Assembly (NCBI GenBank): GCA_017466325.1
Contig: JAFTUK010000008.1
Span: forward strand, 55,113 to 119,112
Source: Bacteroidaceae bacterium
GTDB lineage: Bacteria; Bacteroidota; Bacteroidia; Bacteroidales; Bacteroidaceae
Length of the DNA: 64,000 nt
Reading direction: 5' to 3'
Both the position numbers and the translations under genes were made by a program. Shown here in pieces: positions 3,094-49,992 of this stretch. The notes under the pieces were generated by a model. It was given only the letters and a program-made list of their open reading frames with translations. It did no database searches and was not told the origin of the DNA. How positions within the stretch are numbered: position 1 is the first letter of the stretch; every line of letters begins with the position of its first letter.

Positions 3094-6000
3094 ATGAAAA
3101 AGTTACTACTTTCACTTGTTGTGCTACTCGCTACTTTAGGAGCATGGGCACAAACACAAATTACTGATGCGGCAGCCTTAGCTAATGACAAGGCTTATTC
3201 AGTATTCACCGCACGTGGTGGTTGGGCCGTAGATGCGTATGGAACAAAATTCCAATCCACCAATGACCTTGGCATGGGATTGACAGCCAATTTTGGAAAC
3301 ATCCAACAGGCATTCAGTTTCAAGACCATTGACTCAAAAATTTACCTCTACAGCATTTATGCAGAGAAGTACGTTAACAATAATGCCACATTGTCCGAAA
3401 CTCCCCTGCATGACATTACACTGCTACCCCAAGTCGGGGGATTTTTCGTAATTAAGTTTGATGACAGTCATTACATCAACCTTGGTGGTAGCAAACAGAT
3501 GATTATTGACGGATGGTCTACTGCAGATGAAGGCAACAAGGTTACTATCACCGATATTACAGAAACTACAGAATATATTCAAGGACTGGTAGACACTGAA
3601 ATACAAAAAGCCAGAGAAGGCCTTGATGCTGCGATTGTAAATGCTGAGAAGTTTCTCACTTACGACGAAACACCTATTACCTTGTCCGAATCCAATGTTT
3701 CTTGCAATGACCCAGAACCATTATCTAACGAAGGAATAATCGGAAATCTCTTTGATGGTGATCCTGCCACCTATTTCCATACACGTTGGAGCGGTAGTGA
3801 TAAATCGGTACACTACCTGGAAATTGCTTTGGCAGAAGACATTGAGCAATTCAAATTCAACACCACAAATAGAAATGTAAGCGCAAACATCCCAGCCACT
3901 TACAGGATTGAAGGTAGCAACAATGGCACAGACTTCACAGAAATTGCAATTGTTAATAGCACAGCCAAAACTGCCGGTGCAGAATTCAACTCCAATGCAG
4001 TAGGCAAAGAGGGTACAGCATACCGCTACTTACGCTTCAATGTGATTGACTGCTACACCAGTTACAACATATTTTGGCACCTCGCTGAGTTTTCACTCAA
4101 CAAAGCAGTTCTGCAGGACACATATTCCAACGAGCAATGGATGACTGCCATCAACGAGGCAAAGTCTGTCTATAATAATCCGGAAGCAACTGCAGAAAGT
4201 CTGAGAGCAGCCACACAAAAACTGGAAAATCCCGACTGGCTGACTCCAATGACCGTAAAGTATTCTTTCAAATATAACGGTGAGGAAAAGTATACACAAG
4301 AAATGGAGAATGTTTTGCCCGGCAGCAACTATCCCGATATTTCTGTCACCCTCCCATTCGGTGTATATGCCAGCAAGCCCGCAGGACATGTAACAGCAGA
4401 CAACGTAGTAGACGGAGTCAAGACTGTAGAGATAGAACTGACAATAAATCTCCCCTTCGTTCCTGCAGCCGACTATGCATCTATTAGCAACTGGTACTAC
4501 CTATCTATCTATGAAAAGCCTGTATATTACCAGGATGGACAAACTGCTATAGAACTGAGCGCTGGAGATATTCCTGTGGACAACAAGGATGCCTACACTT
4601 GGGCATTTGTAGGTGACATCTTCGATGGAAACTACATGCTGTACAATTTGGCAACCGGTTCTACCAAGATTCTCTCATCGACCACAAGCACAGATGATGG
4701 TAATACAGGTGCCAATACCCATCCACTCCTTACAGAAACACCCGTACCCGACGGAAACAACACATACTGGACTCCTACTAACAGCACCAATGCCACAAAC
4801 GGGTTCTATCTGGCTCAGAAAGGTTTCCCCAATAACAGAATGAACGTACGCAATGACAAACTTGCATACTGGACTGGCGGTGCCGATGTCGGTTCTACAT
4901 TTACCGTGAAGGAGCGTAACTTTGCAATTACTGCAGATTTGGAAGAACTGGTAGCAAAGGCTTCTGCCATTAACTATGGTACCACTGTAGGTTATTACAC
5001 ACAGGCAAGCGTAGAAGAACTGAAAGCCGCAATAGATGAGGCCAATGCTGCAATAGGTGGCGAACCCACCCAGGACGAAGTAAACGCTTTGGAGTTGAAG
5101 ATTACAAACGCAGTGGCAGCCCTCAAGATTGTTCTCCCCGAAAAAGACAAGTTCTACAATATCGTTAGTGCAAACACCAGTTACGCTGCTGGCAAACAGA
5201 TTTATGTAAGCGACGACGCTGGTCTGAAATTCGACACACCAACCGGAAAGAACATAGGTAACGTCTTCCAGTTCGTTCCCGTGGAAGATCAGGAAGATCA
5301 GTTCTATGTTTACAATGTAGAACGCGGCCTCTACATCTCTACAAACAAAGCACACGCTAACGGACAGCAAAAGGCTGAGTTTGCCATAACCAATCTTGCC
5401 AAACCCATTACAATAGCAAACATGGGTAGCGAAAACATCGTCAAGTTGACCCCCGTTGGTGGCGCCATGATACACGCACAGCAAGCAAACTCTGTAGTGG
5501 TTGCTTGGGACAATAATGACTACAAGAGTGCTTCTGCATGGAAAATTGTTGAAGTTGAAGACATGACTACACAGTTGCACACACTGAAAGTAGGTGAACT
5601 GGGTTACTCAACAATCTATCTGGCATACGATGCCGTGATTCCTGCATTTGAAGGCGATAACGGTGTTTACGTAGCCGAGCAGGTTAATGCAGAAGGCACA
5701 GCAATGAATTTGAAGAAGATTGAAGGCGTCCTTCCCGCAAACACCGGTGCTATCGTAAAGGCTCCTCAGGGAGAGTACGAATTCGCTTACTCAGAAGCCG
5801 CAGGCACCGAAACTTCAATGCTGAAGGGTTCTACCTATGACAAAAACATTGTTGCCACAGCAAACAAAAACCACTACATCCTTTCTCACGAAGAGGGTGA
5901 GGTTGCATTCTTCAAGACCACAACGTCAGTCCTTGAACTCGACGGAGAATATGTCAACATTTTCTTCAATCACGCATTCAAGGCCTACCTGCCCATCGAA

Positions 6001-6177
6001 CAGGGTAGCGCAGCAAGATCACTCGTTTTCAACTTCGGTGGCGAAACCGGTATCCACGACATCGAGAGCGGTGATTTGAATGGAGGAAATGCAGAAATCT
6101 ACGATCTGTCCGGACGCCGCGTCCAGAAGGCACAGAAGGGTCTGTACATCATCAACGGCAAGAAAGTTGTGCGTTAA
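3094..6177 (+). CDS. Large secreted protein with discoidin-like and FIVAR-like domains
   Basis: A 1027-residue protein with a clear signal peptide (residues 1-19, cut near GAWAQ). Residues of about 195-337 resemble an F5/8 type C (discoidin) carbohydrate-binding domain: NLFDGDPATYFHTRW near the start and YRYLRFNV near the end. Two alanine-rich helical stretches, around 345-385 and 610-690 (e.g. YTQASVEELKAAIDEAN), look like FIVAR repeats. The C-terminus has the AEIYDLSGRRV ... GLYIINGKKVVR form common on secreted Bacteroidales proteins and read as a sorting or anchoring signal. No catalytic domain is recognised, so it is more likely a glycan- or host-binding surface protein than an enzyme. 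It has its own promoter and is followed by a 60-residue peptide gene. Confidence 0.85.
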   Translation: MKKLLLSLVVLLATLGAWAQTQITDAAALANDKAYSVFTARGGWAVDAYGTKFQSTNDLGMGLTANFGNIQQAFSFKTIDSKIYLYSIYAEKYVNNNATLSETPLHDITLLPQVGGFFVIKFDDSHYINLGGSKQMIIDGWSTADEGNKVTITDITETTEYIQGLVDTEIQKAREGLDAAIVNAEKFLTYDETPITLSESNVSCNDPEPLSNEGIIGNLFDGDPATYFHTRWSGSDKSVHYLEIALAEDIEQFKFNTTNRNVSANIPATYRIEGSNNGTDFTEIAIVNSTAKTAGAEFNSNAVGKEGTAYRYLRFNVIDCYTSYNIFWHLAEFSLNKAVLQDTYSNEQWMTAINEAKSVYNNPEATAESLRAATQKLENPDWLTPMTVKYSFKYNGEEKYTQEMENVLPGSNYPDISVTLPFGVYASKPAGHVTADNVVDGVKTVEIELTINLPFVPAADYASISNWYYLSIYEKPVYYQDGQTAIELSAGDIPVDNKDAYTWAFVGDIFDGNYMLYNLATGSTKILSSTTSTDDGNTGANTHPLLTETPVPDGNNTYWTPTNSTNATNGFYLAQKGFPNNRMNVRNDKLAYWTGGADVGSTFTVKERNFAITADLEELVAKASAINYGTTVGYYTQASVEELKAAIDEANAAIGGEPTQDEVNALELKITNAVAALKIVLPEKDKFYNIVSANTSYAAGKQIYVSDDAGLKFDTPTGKNIGNVFQFVPVEDQEDQFYVYNVERGLYISTNKAHANGQQKAEFAITNLAKPITIANMGSENIVKLTPVGGAMIHAQQANSVVVAWDNNDYKSASAWKIVEVEDMTTQLHTLKVGELGYSTIYLAYDAVIPAFEGDNGVYVAEQVNAEGTAMNLKKIEGVLPANTGAIVKAPQGEYEFAYSEAAGTETSMLKGSTYDKNIVATANKNHYILSHEEGEVAFFKTTTSVLELDGEYVNIFFNHAFKAYLPIEQGSAARSLVFNFGGETGIHDIESGDLNGGNAEIYDLSGRRVQKAQKGLYIINGKKVVR

Positions 6178-6277: not shown

Positions 6278-6460
6278 ATGAAAAAAGCGTATATATCACC
6301 TATGCAGAAGACCGTGATGTTGGACACATCCTGCAACACCATGTTGCAAGTCAGCATGGGTCTGAAGGACAACGAAAAGAATCCTAACGACGAAGACGTA
6401 CAGCTGGACCGCGAAAAGGAAATCCTGGATTTCAATGTCTGGGACATCTTCTGGGAATAA
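6278..6460 (+). CDS. Small conserved-type peptide, 60 residues, unknown function
   Basis: Starts at ATG 6278; a TTG 12 bases upstream is in frame but less likely. The peptide begins MKKAYISPMQKTVMLDTS, has one cysteine, an acidic middle and the ending DFNVWDIFWE. It resembles the many short Bacteroidales peptides that begin MKK-x-Y-x-x-P and have acidic, tryptophan-containing tails; their function is not known to me. It lies 100 bases after the large secreted protein and just before a strong terminator, so the two are probably co-transcribed. It has no membrane segment or clear signal peptide. Confidence 0.65.
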   Translation: MKKAYISPMQKTVMLDTSCNTMLQVSMGLKDNEKNPNDEDVQLDREKEILDFNVWDIFWE

Positions 6461-45821: not shown

Positions 45822-45864
45822 CCCCCACCCTGCCTGTTCAATACGGTTGGGTGGGGGTGTTTTA
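45822..45864 (+). terminator. Terminator after the HtrA gene
   Basis: CCCCCACCC (45822-45830) pairs perfectly with GGGTGGGGG (45849-45857), followed by TGTTTTA. Confidence 0.8.
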
Positions 45865-45919: not shown

Positions 45920-45927
45920 TATCTTTG
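45920..45927 (+). promoter_or_regulatory. -7 promoter box of the kinase/peptidase/PqqD cassette
   Basis: TATCTTTG lies 24 bases before the ATG at 45952 and just after the HtrA terminator, so the cassette begins a new transcript. Confidence 0.55.
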
Positions 45928-45951: not shown

Positions 45952-46380
45952 ATGAAGAACTGGAACAAACTTTTATGCCTGGCAATTACTGCACTGATGC
46001 TAATCTGCGCCACTGATATTTATTCCAAGCCCAAACAAACAAAAATCTACATATTCGGAGTCAGCATCAATTTCACGGACTCAACAACCTATATCACAGA
46101 CGTACAGGCACTGGAACCCGCATATATCGAAACCAGGACGGGGTTTCTGTATGATCGCAGCATATATTCACAGCAACTACAGATTTGGGTCGAATACGCA
46201 AAGAACCAGCCCAATACCACTTGCACCGTTTTCTTCAGCGAGAACAAAAGCCAACTTGAGAAAAAGTACATCAAGGTCAGGAACAATTACAACAAAGACC
46301 AGTCTACCAAATTGAAGACCTTGAATGCAGGAGAGTTTAAATTTATCCCTCAAGAATGGACCGAGCATGAAAGATTATAA
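45952..46380 (+). CDS. Small secreted protein opening the kinase/peptidase/PqqD cassette
   Basis: The start at ATG 45952 gives 142 residues with a signal peptide (1-25, LICATDIYS). The mature part begins KQTKIYIFGVSINFTDSTTY and appears to be a mixed alpha/beta domain with a basic C-terminal half (KSQLEKKYIKVRNNYNK). No family is recognised. Its stop overlaps the kinase-like gene by 14 bases, so translation is coupled. It has the form of a substrate or partner for the downstream peptidase, but also of an unrelated envelope protein. Confidence 0.7.
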   Translation: MKNWNKLLCLAITALMLICATDIYSKPKQTKIYIFGVSINFTDSTTYITDVQALEPAYIETRTGFLYDRSIYSQQLQIWVEYAKNQPNTTCTVFFSENKSQLEKKYIKVRNNYNKDQSTKLKTLNAGEFKFIPQEWTEHERL

Positions 46381-47248
46381 AATCGCAGACCACAAGGTTT
46401 CTATAGATTTCATCAGCGACAATGCAAGTGAGGAATTGTTGCCAAACTTTGTGCCTTTCATACATATTGGAAACGAAGAGCCCGTATTGAGGGTCTCTGT
46501 AACCGACGATTGGCACTGGCAAGATGAAGCCAAGGAAATAGGGCAATTCGACGTTGGAGGATGCAACCATGGTGTTTACCGGACAACCGACGGAGGTTAC
46601 CAATTTGAGGCCTACGACCCCGGCAATCACCTTTGCAGCCGCATGCAATCATCACCAGACTTCAAGCACTGCTATGTCAAAATTTACGACGGCACACCCA
46701 TACAACGCAAATTCGGGTTAAACAACTGCATGATGATGGCCTTTGCTTTTGCCACAGCCACATTGGACACAATACTCATTCACTCCAGCGTAATCCGTTG
46801 TGACGGCAAAGGCTACCTGATGACAGCTCCAAGCGGTACCGGGAAAAGCACACACACACATTTATGGTATACGACCATCCCCGGTTGCGACCTTATGAAC
46901 GACGACAACCCCATCATACGCATAATAGATGGCCAAGCCATTGTTTATGGTTCCCCGTGGAGTGGCAAGACACCCTGCTACCGCAACATACAGGCACCCA
47001 TTGGCGGAATTGTACGCATCGAGCAATATCCACAAAACATCATACGACGACTTAGGCCAATTGAAGCCTTCGCAGTATTACTGCCTGCATGCAGTACCAT
47101 GAAATGGGACGCACGCACCTACAACGGCATCTGCGACAGTATCACAAAATTCATAGAAACCTGTAACATCTGGGAATTAAAATGCCTGCCTAACGACGAA
47201 GCAGCAATACTCTGCCATGATACCATCAGCAAAGAAAGCAATACTTAA
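46367..47248 (+). CDS. HPr-kinase-like P-loop protein
   Basis: A 293-residue protein. The Walker A motif is APSGTGKST (154-162), followed by a short histidine-rich helix, then NDDNP (178-182) and YGSPWSGK (194-201). This order is that of HprK C-terminal-like kinases and PEP carboxykinase-like proteins often found beside PqqD-like proteins in peptide-modification clusters. It lacks the N-terminal HPr(Ser) kinase domain; the first about 130 residues form a separate beta-rich part. Phosphorylation of a small peptide or protein is a reasonable guess. Start at ATG 46367, overlapping the upstream gene; the stop overlaps the peptidase gene. Confidence 0.78.
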   Translation: MKDYKIADHKVSIDFISDNASEELLPNFVPFIHIGNEEPVLRVSVTDDWHWQDEAKEIGQFDVGGCNHGVYRTTDGGYQFEAYDPGNHLCSRMQSSPDFKHCYVKIYDGTPIQRKFGLNNCMMMAFAFATATLDTILIHSSVIRCDGKGYLMTAPSGTGKSTHTHLWYTTIPGCDLMNDDNPIIRIIDGQAIVYGSPWSGKTPCYRNIQAPIGGIVRIEQYPQNIIRRLRPIEAFAVLLPACSTMKWDARTYNGICDSITKFIETCNIWELKCLPNDEAAILCHDTISKESNT

Positions 47249-47777
47249 AGGACTAAGATTGTTATTCTCTCCAATAAGGAGCAACTACAAGAAAAGGAAT
47301 GGCATACCCACTCCCATGCCACGCATGGAGATTCCCAACGACATCCTTCTCGGTGCTGCCAGAGATGCGATACGGGAAGGGAACACTGCAACTATAGCGG
47401 TTAAAGGCTGGAGCATGCGCCCTTTTCTGGAACACCAACGCGACAAGGTATTGCTTGACAATCCCCAAGGAGCAAAGGTCGGAGATGCTGTTCTGGCAGA
47501 AATTCTACCAGGTAACTACGTTTTGCATAGGATTATAAACATAATCCCGCACCTCACTGATGACATTTTTGACGAGATTACATTAATGGGAGATGGAAAT
47601 ATCCGCGGAACAGAACAATGCCTGCGCAAAGACATCTGCGGTATTGTCACCCACTATGTCCGCCCCAACAGGACAATCCCCGCCAACGACCCTAAACTTG
47701 TAAGGAGAATCAGACTTTGGAGAAAGTTACTACCCATCAGAAGGTATTTACTCTTTATCTATAAATCAATAATATAA
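47217..47777 (+). CDS. S24/S26-family peptidase (LexA/signal-peptidase fold)
   Basis: A 186-residue protein. The catalytic serine is S66 in VKGWSMRPF, the usual G-x-SM form. The second catalytic position is histidine, H104 in YVLHRIINI, as in SipW/eukaryotic-type signal peptidases, not lysine. LMGDGN (123-128) is the conserved aspartate box. There is no clear membrane helix, so it is probably cytoplasmic or only peripherally bound. The start at ATG 47217 overlaps the kinase gene by 32 bases; ATG codons at 47316 and 47325 are alternatives. Confidence 0.78.
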   Translation: MIPSAKKAILKGLRLLFSPIRSNYKKRNGIPTPMPRMEIPNDILLGAARDAIREGNTATIAVKGWSMRPFLEHQRDKVLLDNPQGAKVGDAVLAEILPGNYVLHRIINIIPHLTDDIFDEITLMGDGNIRGTEQCLRKDICGIVTHYVRPNRTIPANDPKLVRRIRLWRKLLPIRRYLLFIYKSII

Positions 47778-47789
47778 ACACATCAGAAA

Positions 47790-48056
47790 ATGAGAATTAA
47801 GGAAGGATTTGAACTTCGTGAAGTTTGCGGAGAGCACATAGTTGTAGCACATGGAGAAAAGAACATTGATTTTTCCAGAGTAATAAACTTGAACGAATCT
47901 GCCGCACTAATGTGGCAGGCTGCCATTGGAAAGGAATTTACAGTAGACGACCTGTTCTCCACACTTATGAAAAACTATGATGTCGATGAACATATTGCCA
48001 AGGACGACGCCCAACGCATTATGAACGAATGGAGGGAAATGGGACTAATTGAATAA
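47790..48056 (+). CDS. PqqD-like peptide-recognition protein
   Basis: An 88-residue protein with the PqqD/RRE winged-helix pattern: beta strands (FELREVCGEHIVVAHG), NLNESAALMWQAAIGKEFTVDDLF, then the helical end RIMNEWREMGLIE. Such domains bind leader peptides and hand them to modifying enzymes. It lies 12 bases after the peptidase gene. No radical SAM enzyme, cyclase or obvious precursor peptide is next to it. Confidence 0.82.
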   Translation: MRIKEGFELREVCGEHIVVAHGEKNIDFSRVINLNESAALMWQAAIGKEFTVDDLFSTLMKNYDVDEHIAKDDAQRIMNEWREMGLIE

Positions 48057-48085: not shown

Positions 48086-48754
48086 ATGGAACAGATATGG
48101 CAAGACATTGCAGAATGGATTAACCTTCTTGCACAGACACTGCGCATTCCCACCTCATTTCTGCTCATAGAATTCATAGGCACCTTTGCATTCGCACTGT
48201 CGGGCATACGCCTGGCCAGTGCCAAGCAGTTTGACGTCTTCGGAGCATGGATTGTGGGTATGGCCACGGCCATAGGCGGCGGTACGTTCCGCGATGTCAT
48301 GTTGGGTGTAAATCCCTTCTGGATGACCAACGAGATTTACTTCATCTGGTGCGCACTTGCCGTCCTGTTCGTGCACATATTTGCCAAATACCTTGTAAAG
48401 CAGAAGAACACATGGTTCATCTTCGACACCATCGGTCTGGCGCTCTTCAACGTGGTCGGCATCGAAAAGACCCTGCAGATGGGTTTTCCCATGTGGACCG
48501 CAATCACAATGGGTTCCGTCACCGGTGCGGCAGGAGGTGTAATCCGCGATGTCCTCATCAACGAGGTTCCGCTTATCTTCCGCAAGGAAATATATGCTCT
48601 TGCCTGCGTGGCCGGTGGTATTGTGTACTCCATGTTTCATGTCATGGACTTTAATCCCAACATCAGCGCCCTGTTCTCCAGTATAGTGGTTATTGCCGTC
48701 AGATGTTTTGCAGTGAAGTTCCACTGGCATCTGCCCATCGTCAAGGGAGAATAA
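48086..48754 (+). CDS. TRIC-type trimeric intracellular cation channel (YadS/UPF0126)
   Basis: A 222-residue membrane protein with seven helices formed by two repeats. Each repeat has the conserved glycine bend and RD pair: AIGGGTFRDVML and GAAGGVIRDVLI. Prokaryotic TRIC channels conduct K+ or other monovalent cations; the physiological role is unclear. It is 29 bases after the PqqD gene and is probably read through from the cassette. Confidence 0.88.
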   Translation: MEQIWQDIAEWINLLAQTLRIPTSFLLIEFIGTFAFALSGIRLASAKQFDVFGAWIVGMATAIGGGTFRDVMLGVNPFWMTNEIYFIWCALAVLFVHIFAKYLVKQKNTWFIFDTIGLALFNVVGIEKTLQMGFPMWTAITMGSVTGAAGGVIRDVLINEVPLIFRKEIYALACVAGGIVYSMFHVMDFNPNISALFSSIVVIAVRCFAVKFHWHLPIVKGE

Positions 48755-48765
48755 CATTGTCACTC

Positions 48766-49992
48766 ATGAAACGTACGTTCCTCATACTTGCCGCACTGTT
48801 GCTGACCGTTTGCACTTACGGCCGGCACAAGGTATACGACAAGAATGTACGTACACTGCAAGTCACCCTCAACGACAATCCGCTCCTGCCTCCTGTACTT
48901 AAACTCGGCAAATCCTCGTTTCTAAGGATTTCATGGGACGAGATGTCGCATGACTATCACCGTTATGTCTACCGCATACAGCACTGCACACGGGACTGGA
49001 AGCCTACCGAAGACCTGTTTGAAAGCGACTATCTGCATGGCACCAACGATTTGCCTGTGGAGGACTACGAAACGAGTTTCAATACCACCCAACTCTACAC
49101 ACACTATTCCCTCACATTCCCCAACAGGGATGCCTCAGTTCTGATCAGCGGCAACTACAAACTGCTAGTATACGACGAGGATTTCATGGACGACGGTCCT
49201 GTCATAGAAGTACGTTTCCATGTTGTAGAAGCAGAAATGGGATTGACCATGCAGGTTTCCTCCAACACAGACATCGACGTCAACGACAAGCATCAGCAGG
49301 TATCCTTGAATCTGAACTATGGCACCATCAAGGTTACCGACCCCTACAACCAGATTCACGCCCTGGTAAGCCAGAACCGCCGTCCCTCACGTACTGTTGT
49401 CGGCATACGCCCCGACATCAACAAGGCCAACGGTCTGGAATGGCAGCATTGCGAGGAACTAATCTTCCCTGCCGGAAACGAATATCACAAATTTGAAATC
49501 CTTGATGTAAACCACTCCGGAATGAACGTGGACCACATGCGATGGTTCGAACCCTACTACCATGCCACCCTATGGATGGACGAGGTTCCGCACAGTTACC
49601 TTACCGCAGAGGACAGGAACGGAACCTTCTATCCAAGAACAGCCGATCAGGAGGACAACAGCACACAGTCGGAATATGTAATCGTACATTTCTCCTTGCA
49701 GTCTCCACGCCTGTCCCTACCGGTCTACGTGAACGGCGAGTGGAGCAACGGTGAAACTTCGCCAGAATGCCTTATGGAATACAACGACGACTACGAATGC
49801 TACGAAGCCTCGATATTGTTGAAGCAAGGATACTACGACTATCAATACATCACGGCAGACGGGGCAACCCTTGATACCATGCGCGACTTTTGGCAGACTG
49901 AAAACGAATACCAGACATTCATCTACTATAAAGAGATTGGAGGACGCTACGACAGGATAGTTGCATACAACTGTGTCAATACAAGGTTCTAA
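48766..49992 (+). CDS. DUF5103 protein, type IX secretion plug homologue
   Basis: The start at ATG 48766 gives 408 residues with a signal peptide (1-20). The body shows the DUF5103 layout: a beta-sandwich N-domain (RTLQVTLNDNPLLPP, RISWDEMSHDYHRYVYRIQHC, DWKPTEDLF) and a later domain with YVNGEWSNG and YYDYQYI. In Flavobacterium johnsoniae the DUF5103 Plug protein closes the SprA translocon from the periplasm. It lies 11 bases after the TRIC gene and 36 before the flippase. Confidence 0.82.
   Translation: MKRTFLILAALLLTVCTYGRHKVYDKNVRTLQVTLNDNPLLPPVLKLGKSSFLRISWDEMSHDYHRYVYRIQHCTRDWKPTEDLFESDYLHGTNDLPVEDYETSFNTTQLYTHYSLTFPNRDASVLISGNYKLLVYDEDFMDDGPVIEVRFHVVEAEMGLTMQVSSNTDIDVNDKHQQVSLNLNYGTIKVTDPYNQIHALVSQNRRPSRTVVGIRPDINKANGLEWQHCEELIFPAGNEYHKFEILDVNHSGMNVDHMRWFEPYYHATLWMDEVPHSYLTAEDRNGTFYPRTADQEDNSTQSEYVIVHFSLQSPRLSLPVYVNGEWSNGETSPECLMEYNDDYECYEASILLKQGYYDYQYITADGATLDTMRDFWQTENEYQTFIYYKEIGGRYDRIVAYNCVNTRF

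Follow-up and report, generated by a model that had tools for sequence, protein, structure and literature searches.

A Bacteroidota kinase–protease–PqqD module that probably represents a version of the LPP RiPP system, with candidate YxxP precursor peptides

Introduction

The LPP RiPP system of Bacillota was described by Popov et al. (Nat Commun, May 2026; PMC13381572). In the available part of that article, its gene set comprises a kinase, an RRE, a SipW-like protease, an NTP transferase and an MsbA-like exporter, with lppA-K-B-S-D-N of Paenibacillus alginolyticus as the reference cluster. The leader reads YxxPxVLxHQxIxFETxxS, Ser3 is phosphorylated, and cutting by LppS depends on the RRE. 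Of 9173 complete Bacilli genomes, 80 encode LPPs; their distribution is patchy, with a history driven by transfer, and their role is given as unknown. They are stated to be restricted to Bacillota, and the word stem Bacteroid is absent from the accessible text.

Phosphorylated lasso peptides offer a second point of comparison. As far as the available parts of the articles on Bsf and paeninodin go (PMC10368454, PMC7533575), these systems use an HprK-like kinase, a PqqD/B1 protein, an NTP transferase, an ABC exporter and a YxxP-type leader; in Bsf the landmarks are leader Tyr-17 and Ser3 (PMC10368454). HPr-rel-A (TIGR04352 kinase and TIGR04353 PqqD, NCBIfam) likewise joins an HprK-related kinase to a PqqD-family chaperone. 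For Bacteroidales, the accessible portion of a 2023 RiPP survey (PMC10352776) contains no HPr or S24 term and names PqqD once, in the references. A search of literature titles and abstracts, with preprints and many journals outside its scope, returned no report of an LPP-like system in Bacteroidota.

Here we analyse a four-gene cassette within a 64,000-nucleotide stretch of DNA (the window) from a genome of 2.59 Mb in 56 contigs, 88% complete, that belongs to a Bacteroidota family. We put a probability of about 0.83 on the reading that its kinase, protease and PqqD protein make up the core of an LPP system in its Bacteroidota version and act on YxxP peptides encoded elsewhere. The reading is supported because relatives carry the same gene set, module and peptides co-occur, catalytic and leader-binding residues are conserved and the candidate precursors share a common register, all of which can be read from the sequences themselves.

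Architecture and distribution of the cassette

The cassette and its signals are arranged as follows.

About 45822-45864, + strand: terminator-like hairpin in the gap between HtrA and the cassette, GC-rich, CCCCCACCC...GGGTGGGGG followed by a T run
45920-45927, + strand: TATCTTTG, a Bacteroidetes -7-like promoter box by its sequence, which fits TAnnTTTG, the Bacteroidetes promoter element
45952-46380, + strand: SEC, lineage-specific secreted protein, 142 aa, with a signal-peptide-like N-terminus by eye
46367-47248, + strand: HprK-like peptide kinase (putative LppK/BsfK type), 293 aa, from motif residues and NCBIfam HprK_rel_A
47217-47777, + strand: SipW/S26-type serine leader peptidase (putative LppS type), 186 aa, from S66/H104/D126 and PF00717 in relatives
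47790-48056, + strand: discrete RRE / PqqD protein (putative LppB/B1 type), 88 aa, PF05402 at E 9e-13

The compact four-gene cassette of the first-pass annotation is borne out: successive reading frames overlap by 14 and 32 bases, and a 12-base gap precedes PqqD. The same annotation had given the cassette its own promoter behind an HtrA terminator, and the signals listed agree with this. A hairpin scan returned a stem at 45833-45855 that overlaps the hairpin as read, with its T run, and the TATCTTTG box follows, at a position outside the coverage of the sigma-70 promoter scan. Two genes of type IX secretion (T9SS) lie nearby: the second gene 3' of the cassette is a plug gene (window 48703-49992), and the translocon gene SprA (contig C20, 40943-48361), which shares the contig, precedes the window start by about 7 kb.

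Relatives of the window kinase were found in 122 of 151 genomes of the family and in 25 of its 30 genera. Profile searches of the same genomes, with profiles that include sequences from them, found PqqD in 125 and the protease in 122. All three are present in 121 of the 151 genomes, none in 25 and a partial set in five. Core parts of LPP type, called Bacillota-restricted, would therewith be widespread in this part of Bacteroidota, a distribution that differs from that in Bacilli (80 of 9173).

The genes are also linked. Within 4 kb of the kinase at 121 loci (the window plus L032-L151, overlaps between collections left in), the protease occurs at 105, PqqD at 107 and both at 96, so that the grouping is not due to chance; kinase, S26-type protease and PqqD are one module. 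This is the outcome of the neighbourhood comparison that the first-pass annotation had proposed for the order secreted protein, kinase, protease and PqqD: the last three do stand together in other genomes, and SEC is near the kinase at 40 of the 121 loci. The remaining counts are 49 for an ABC gene, 24 for an NTP transferase, 22 for RpoD, 21 for HtrA and five for a C11 protease.

Three layouts can be told apart. Type 1, which includes the window, runs HtrA and/or RpoD, SEC, (C11 protease), kinase, protease, PqqD; in the lineage of the window the module often adjoins RpoD or HtrA. Type 2 has kinase, protease, PqqD, (NTP transferase) and ABC exporter, at many loci amid housekeeping genes. Type 3 places PqqD, NTP transferase and kinase within capsule operons. 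In some genera (loci L036, L037, L038, L039 and L044) the gene between SEC and the kinase encodes a secreted clostripain-like peptidase (C11, by eye), and in the capsule-type loci of G008, G013 and G140 contig C79 the protease lies about 8-16 kb from the kinase on the same contig.

NTP transferase and MsbA-like exporter genes in clusters of relatives, together with capsule-locus linkage in some genomes, add to the likeness with LPP. Both genes are absent from the window operon, a point of difference; the single NTP_transf_5 match in this genome is unlinked, on contig C14.

One alternative is that the cassette acts on SEC, which PqqD, kinase and protease would modify before or during export. 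In type 1 loci SEC indeed lies 5' of the kinase, often overlapping it or a few bases away. Against this, SEC is near the kinase at only a third of the loci counted above, and type 2 loci keep kinase, protease and PqqD together without it. The N-terminus of SEC is of Sec type, and a YxxP leader is absent from all 19 aligned members, whose mean column identity is 24%; no Pfam family was common to more than two of these 19 at E≤0.1. SEC, one of two substrates considered in the first-pass annotation, is therefore an unlikely one, and we regard this alternative as very improbable.

A scan of named genomes returned, among the best 80 of at least 148 confirmed relatives, records labelled Muribaculaceae, Alistipes, Paludibacteraceae, Sphingobacterium and Fibrobacter. 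Over 26 loci, distances of RpoD correlate with those of the kinase at r 0.50, of PqqD at 0.41 and of the protease at 0.18, so the case for vertical descent of the module is moderate at best. Two other ideas were dropped: a defence system, as PADLOC gave no match for the four cassette proteins, and viral spread, as the kinase profile found no relative in the viral contigs scanned.

Catalytic and leader-binding residues

The kinase-like and S24/S26 identities proposed in the first-pass annotation are recognised through the respective families. The window kinase has no match in Pfam and weak ones in NCBIfam (HprK_rel_A 2.8e-6, ScmC 7e-4). HprK_rel_A matches 31 of 40 kinase members at E≤0.001, the window protein itself staying below the model's cut-off. 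Membership of HPr-rel-A is not indicated, the window proteins falling far below the cut-offs of TIGR04352 (26.6 of 200 bits) and TIGR04353 (15.1 of 35 bits). H139, G157, G159, K160, S161, T162 and D180 are present in 40 of 40 aligned kinases and D179 in 37. The LPP-type motif H-G-G-G-K-S-D-D is thus found across the alignment, but the window protein has Ala for its first glycine. The same holds in comparison with the lasso kinase BsfK, for which the available part of PMC10368454 gives motif residues and the spacing from H to P-loop: both are shared here, apart from Ala for the first glycine. A divergent kinase branch in genus g2 (L056, L058, L059) keeps the P-loop and has INGDRS in place of NDDNP; of the respective genomes, G001 and G031 yielded no YxxP peptide and G054 one.

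Taken alone, the window protease remains below threshold (Peptidase_S24 0.033, archaeal-type signal peptidase 0.012), while PF00717 (Peptidase_S24) matches 22 of 32 aligned relatives at E≤0.01. All 32 carry the triad S66, H104 and D126. Where ordinary bacterial signal peptidase I has Lys, the cassette protease has His, which assigns it to the SipW/ER type. Bacillus SipW and archaeal-type signal peptidase I share with the cassette protease the Ser-His-Asp residues and the GxSMxP, HR and GDGN boxes. Unlike SipW, the cassette protease has no N-terminal membrane anchor by eye, and it probably works with the RRE. For LppS, catalytic S29, H68 and D93 are reported in the accessible text of PMC13381572.

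The PqqD assignment of the first-pass annotation is confirmed by PF05402 (E 9e-13). In an alignment of 34 rows (A3), Asp73 and Tyr63 are invariant and Asn35 is found in at least 90%. These residues align, in an LppB match of E 0.027, with Asp70, Tyr60 and Asn33 of LppB, which the available part of PMC13381572 names as contacts holding the leader Tyr and Pro. The first-pass annotation had named a lack of ATP-binding geometry in the kinase and of the peptide-binding groove in PqqD as grounds against its idea; at the level of sequence, the ATP-binding motif and the RRE residues that bind the leader are conserved.

Compared with solved RREs, the PqqD profile is nearest to lasso B1 proteins (TfuB1 2.9e-7, TbiB1 1.5e-4, PbaB1 (9x90) 3.7e-4), above LppB (9x8z, 0.027). 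This would fit a degenerate lasso cluster, now without cyclase and B2 protease and in a new role, for example in capsule assembly, and type 3 loci do lie in capsule operons. Bacillota LPP loci, according to the accessible portion of PMC13381572, are found in capsule loci as well. The B2 transglutaminase-type peptidase (PF13471) is a match in nine of the 151 family genomes at E≤0.001, in two over the cut-off, and has no match in the genome of the window; being so rare, it leaves no lasso ancestor visible in the family. Moreover, the catalytic residues are intact and YxxP peptides co-occur with the module, so we consider a degenerate lasso origin improbable.

The cassette differs from phosphorylated lasso clusters in that it has a SipW-type protease instead of B2 and lacks a macrolactam cyclase, none being found by Pfam and/or NCBIfam among its four genes and seven window neighbours. 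With LPP it shares an HprK-like kinase, a discrete RRE, a SipW-type Ser/His/Asp protease and the absence of a cyclase. It would thus work like an LPP system, and those sequence features that can be tested agree with one, save that the operon has neither exporter nor NTP transferase. The earlier suggestion, a peptide-phosphorylating and peptide-cleaving system apart from the lasso type, fits the biochemically characterised LPP family, with its like gene set, and the YxxP peptides discussed below.

Candidate precursor peptides

The first sign of precursors came from gaps in capsule-type loci, where reading frames of about 60 residues share a YxxP...S motif. A scan by regular expression returned many spurious reading frames and was rejected. 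An iterated profile found 26 peptides at E≤0.01 in 156 loci; these, L074 (0.014), L075 (0.028) and a window reading frame make up an alignment of 29 rows (A5). Leaving out the second peptide of L149, L048, L148 and L110 and adding four peptides from the genome of the window gave the model used here (A6, 29 rows). It detects five peptides in this genome. That the substrate might be a peptide encoded elsewhere had been suggested in the first-pass annotation, and these candidates agree with it. One lies in the window, behind a surface-protein gene.

3094-6177, + strand: surface protein with F5/8 type C and FIVAR domains and a T9SS-like C-terminal tail, 100 bases 5' of the candidate precursor
6278-6460, + strand: candidate precursor, 60 aa, profile E 1.3e-11 against a model that contains it; four more occur in the genome

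At E≤0.001, 116 of the 151 family genomes are positive, with one to nineteen candidates each. Precursors occur in 111 of 122 genomes with the kinase, leaving 11 without a match, versus five of 29 without it (p 7e-15, uncorrected for phylogeny). Since 13 of the 29 rows of A6 come from the family genomes tested, a sample of 218 genomes of the order provides the cleaner test. There, peptides were found in eight of 32 genomes with the kinase (defined at E≤1e-15) versus one of 186 without it (p 8e-7). In the other 24 of these 32 there was no peptide at E≤1e-4; G262 and G239, which belong to these 24, do yield one when the search is restricted to the cassette locus.

Could the peptides be small proteins unrelated to the cassette, distributed alike through common ancestry? 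Those of the window's genome are unlinked to the cassette, and the family-level test is the one left uncorrected. The order sample, with its single positive among the kinase-free genomes, points the other way. In genus g3, both the kinase and the peptides (ten matches) are confined to G149 among five listed members (G002, G032, G055, G074, G149). Some peptides are also linked after all: one lies between PqqD and kinase in L296, one directly 5' of the kinase in L292 (peptide, kinase, protease, PqqD, NTP transferase, ABC), one ahead of ABC, protease, PqqD and kinase in L291, and one directly 3' of the ABC gene in each of L048 and L095. As the leader motif is in addition a known RRE ligand, mere shared ancestry seems an improbable explanation. 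By eye, no recurrent precursor was seen just upstream of type 2 and 3 cassettes in 17 loci.

The register was counted in 62 peptides from 60 loci, chosen with the profile. The first position is Tyr in 61, +3 is Pro in all 62, +17 is A/C in 54 and +19 is Ser in 56, and 55 have Trp among the last eight residues. The part after +19 is acidic (on average 6.5 D/E and 2.0 K/R) and free of Cys. Four of the five peptides of the window's genome have Ser at +19, and the one in the window is atypical with Ser at +21. Six peptides gave no match to Pfam or NCBIfam at E≤1.

The YxxP leader and a conserved Ser near the predicted cleavage site are shared with LPP precursors. The distance from Tyr to Ser is 19 (56 of 62) compared to 18 in LPP, and the leader after YxxP differs; the spacing equals that of Tyr-17 and Ser3 in the Bsf lasso peptide, as given in the accessible part of PMC10368454. 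Unlike LPP precursors, those described here are mostly unlinked, several per genome and located 3' of surface-protein genes. For the LPP field this would mean an abundant new lineage and a large family of precursors; the six compared match no Pfam or NCBIfam model.

In G149 (L054, L299, L300), a single cassette is surrounded by near-identical YxxP peptides that are dispersed across about 50 kb and occur on both strands, a pattern suggestive of duplication. Outside Bacteroidota by record label, L098 and L108 (labelled Fibrobacter) have three YxxP peptides, ending GLAP then DHLA/DRLA, near an NTP transferase-kinase pair.

Proposed pathway

From LPP and lasso biochemistry we infer binding, phosphorylation and cutting, in this order. 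PqqD, as the RRE, would bind the Y-x-x-P leader of short precursors whose genes lie elsewhere in the genome. Next, the HprK-like kinase would phosphorylate the conserved Ser, some 19 residues beyond the leader Tyr, and the S26 protease, through Ser66-His104-Asp126, would subsequently cut the leader off just before this Ser. The predicted product is a core of about 30 residues that is acidic and mostly has Trp near its end. The exact cleavage bond, the export route and the role of the product are guesses. If Tyr is taken as -17, the core would start at the A/C found 17 residues after it, with Ser as residue 3; if a small residue is placed at -1, the cut would fall one residue later.

Coupling to surface proteins

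A lead to function may come from the neighbouring surface protein, many candidate substrates being coupled to such genes. All five peptides of the window's genome start 16-100 bases 3' of a large gene on the same strand, and the products of these genes carry a C-terminal tail such as IYDLSGRRVQKAQKGLYIINGKKVVR; a profile of this tail gave 44 matches in the genome at E≤0.01. In other genomes the tail is present on 44 of 47 reading frames upstream of peptides. Once the 15 tails used to build the profile are set aside, it is found on 29 of 32 upstream reading frames versus 25 of 890 in the background. For 15 of the 62 peptides there is no upstream reading frame within 200 bases. The profile took the place of an initial regular expression for the tail, which with 23 of 62 peptides had been too strict.

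Four of the five surface proteins have domains with some support, namely BspA-type LRR, Ig-like, FIVAR with F5/8 type C, or a weak fimbrial-usher/Ig-like match; no domain was seen in the fifth. The tail resembles the type A tail of the T9SS only weakly: TIGR04183 reaches E 0.18 (the 3094-6177 protein) and 0.56 in two of the five, below its cut-off, and no Por_Secre_tail family appears among their Pfam matches. The T9SS translocon SprA is encoded in the genome.

Speculatively, the Bacteroidota LPP machinery might be a housekeeping pathway of the cell surface and not a weapon in conflict. The phosphopeptide might then serve as partner, tag or anchor of the preceding surface protein, probably type IX-secreted, its phosphate being joined to an envelope sugar by the nucleotidyltransferase where one is present. 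We hold this to be a rather unlikely extension of the LPP reading. In several capsule loci (L140, L052, L145 and L053), the gene ahead of the peptide is instead of Wzc type.
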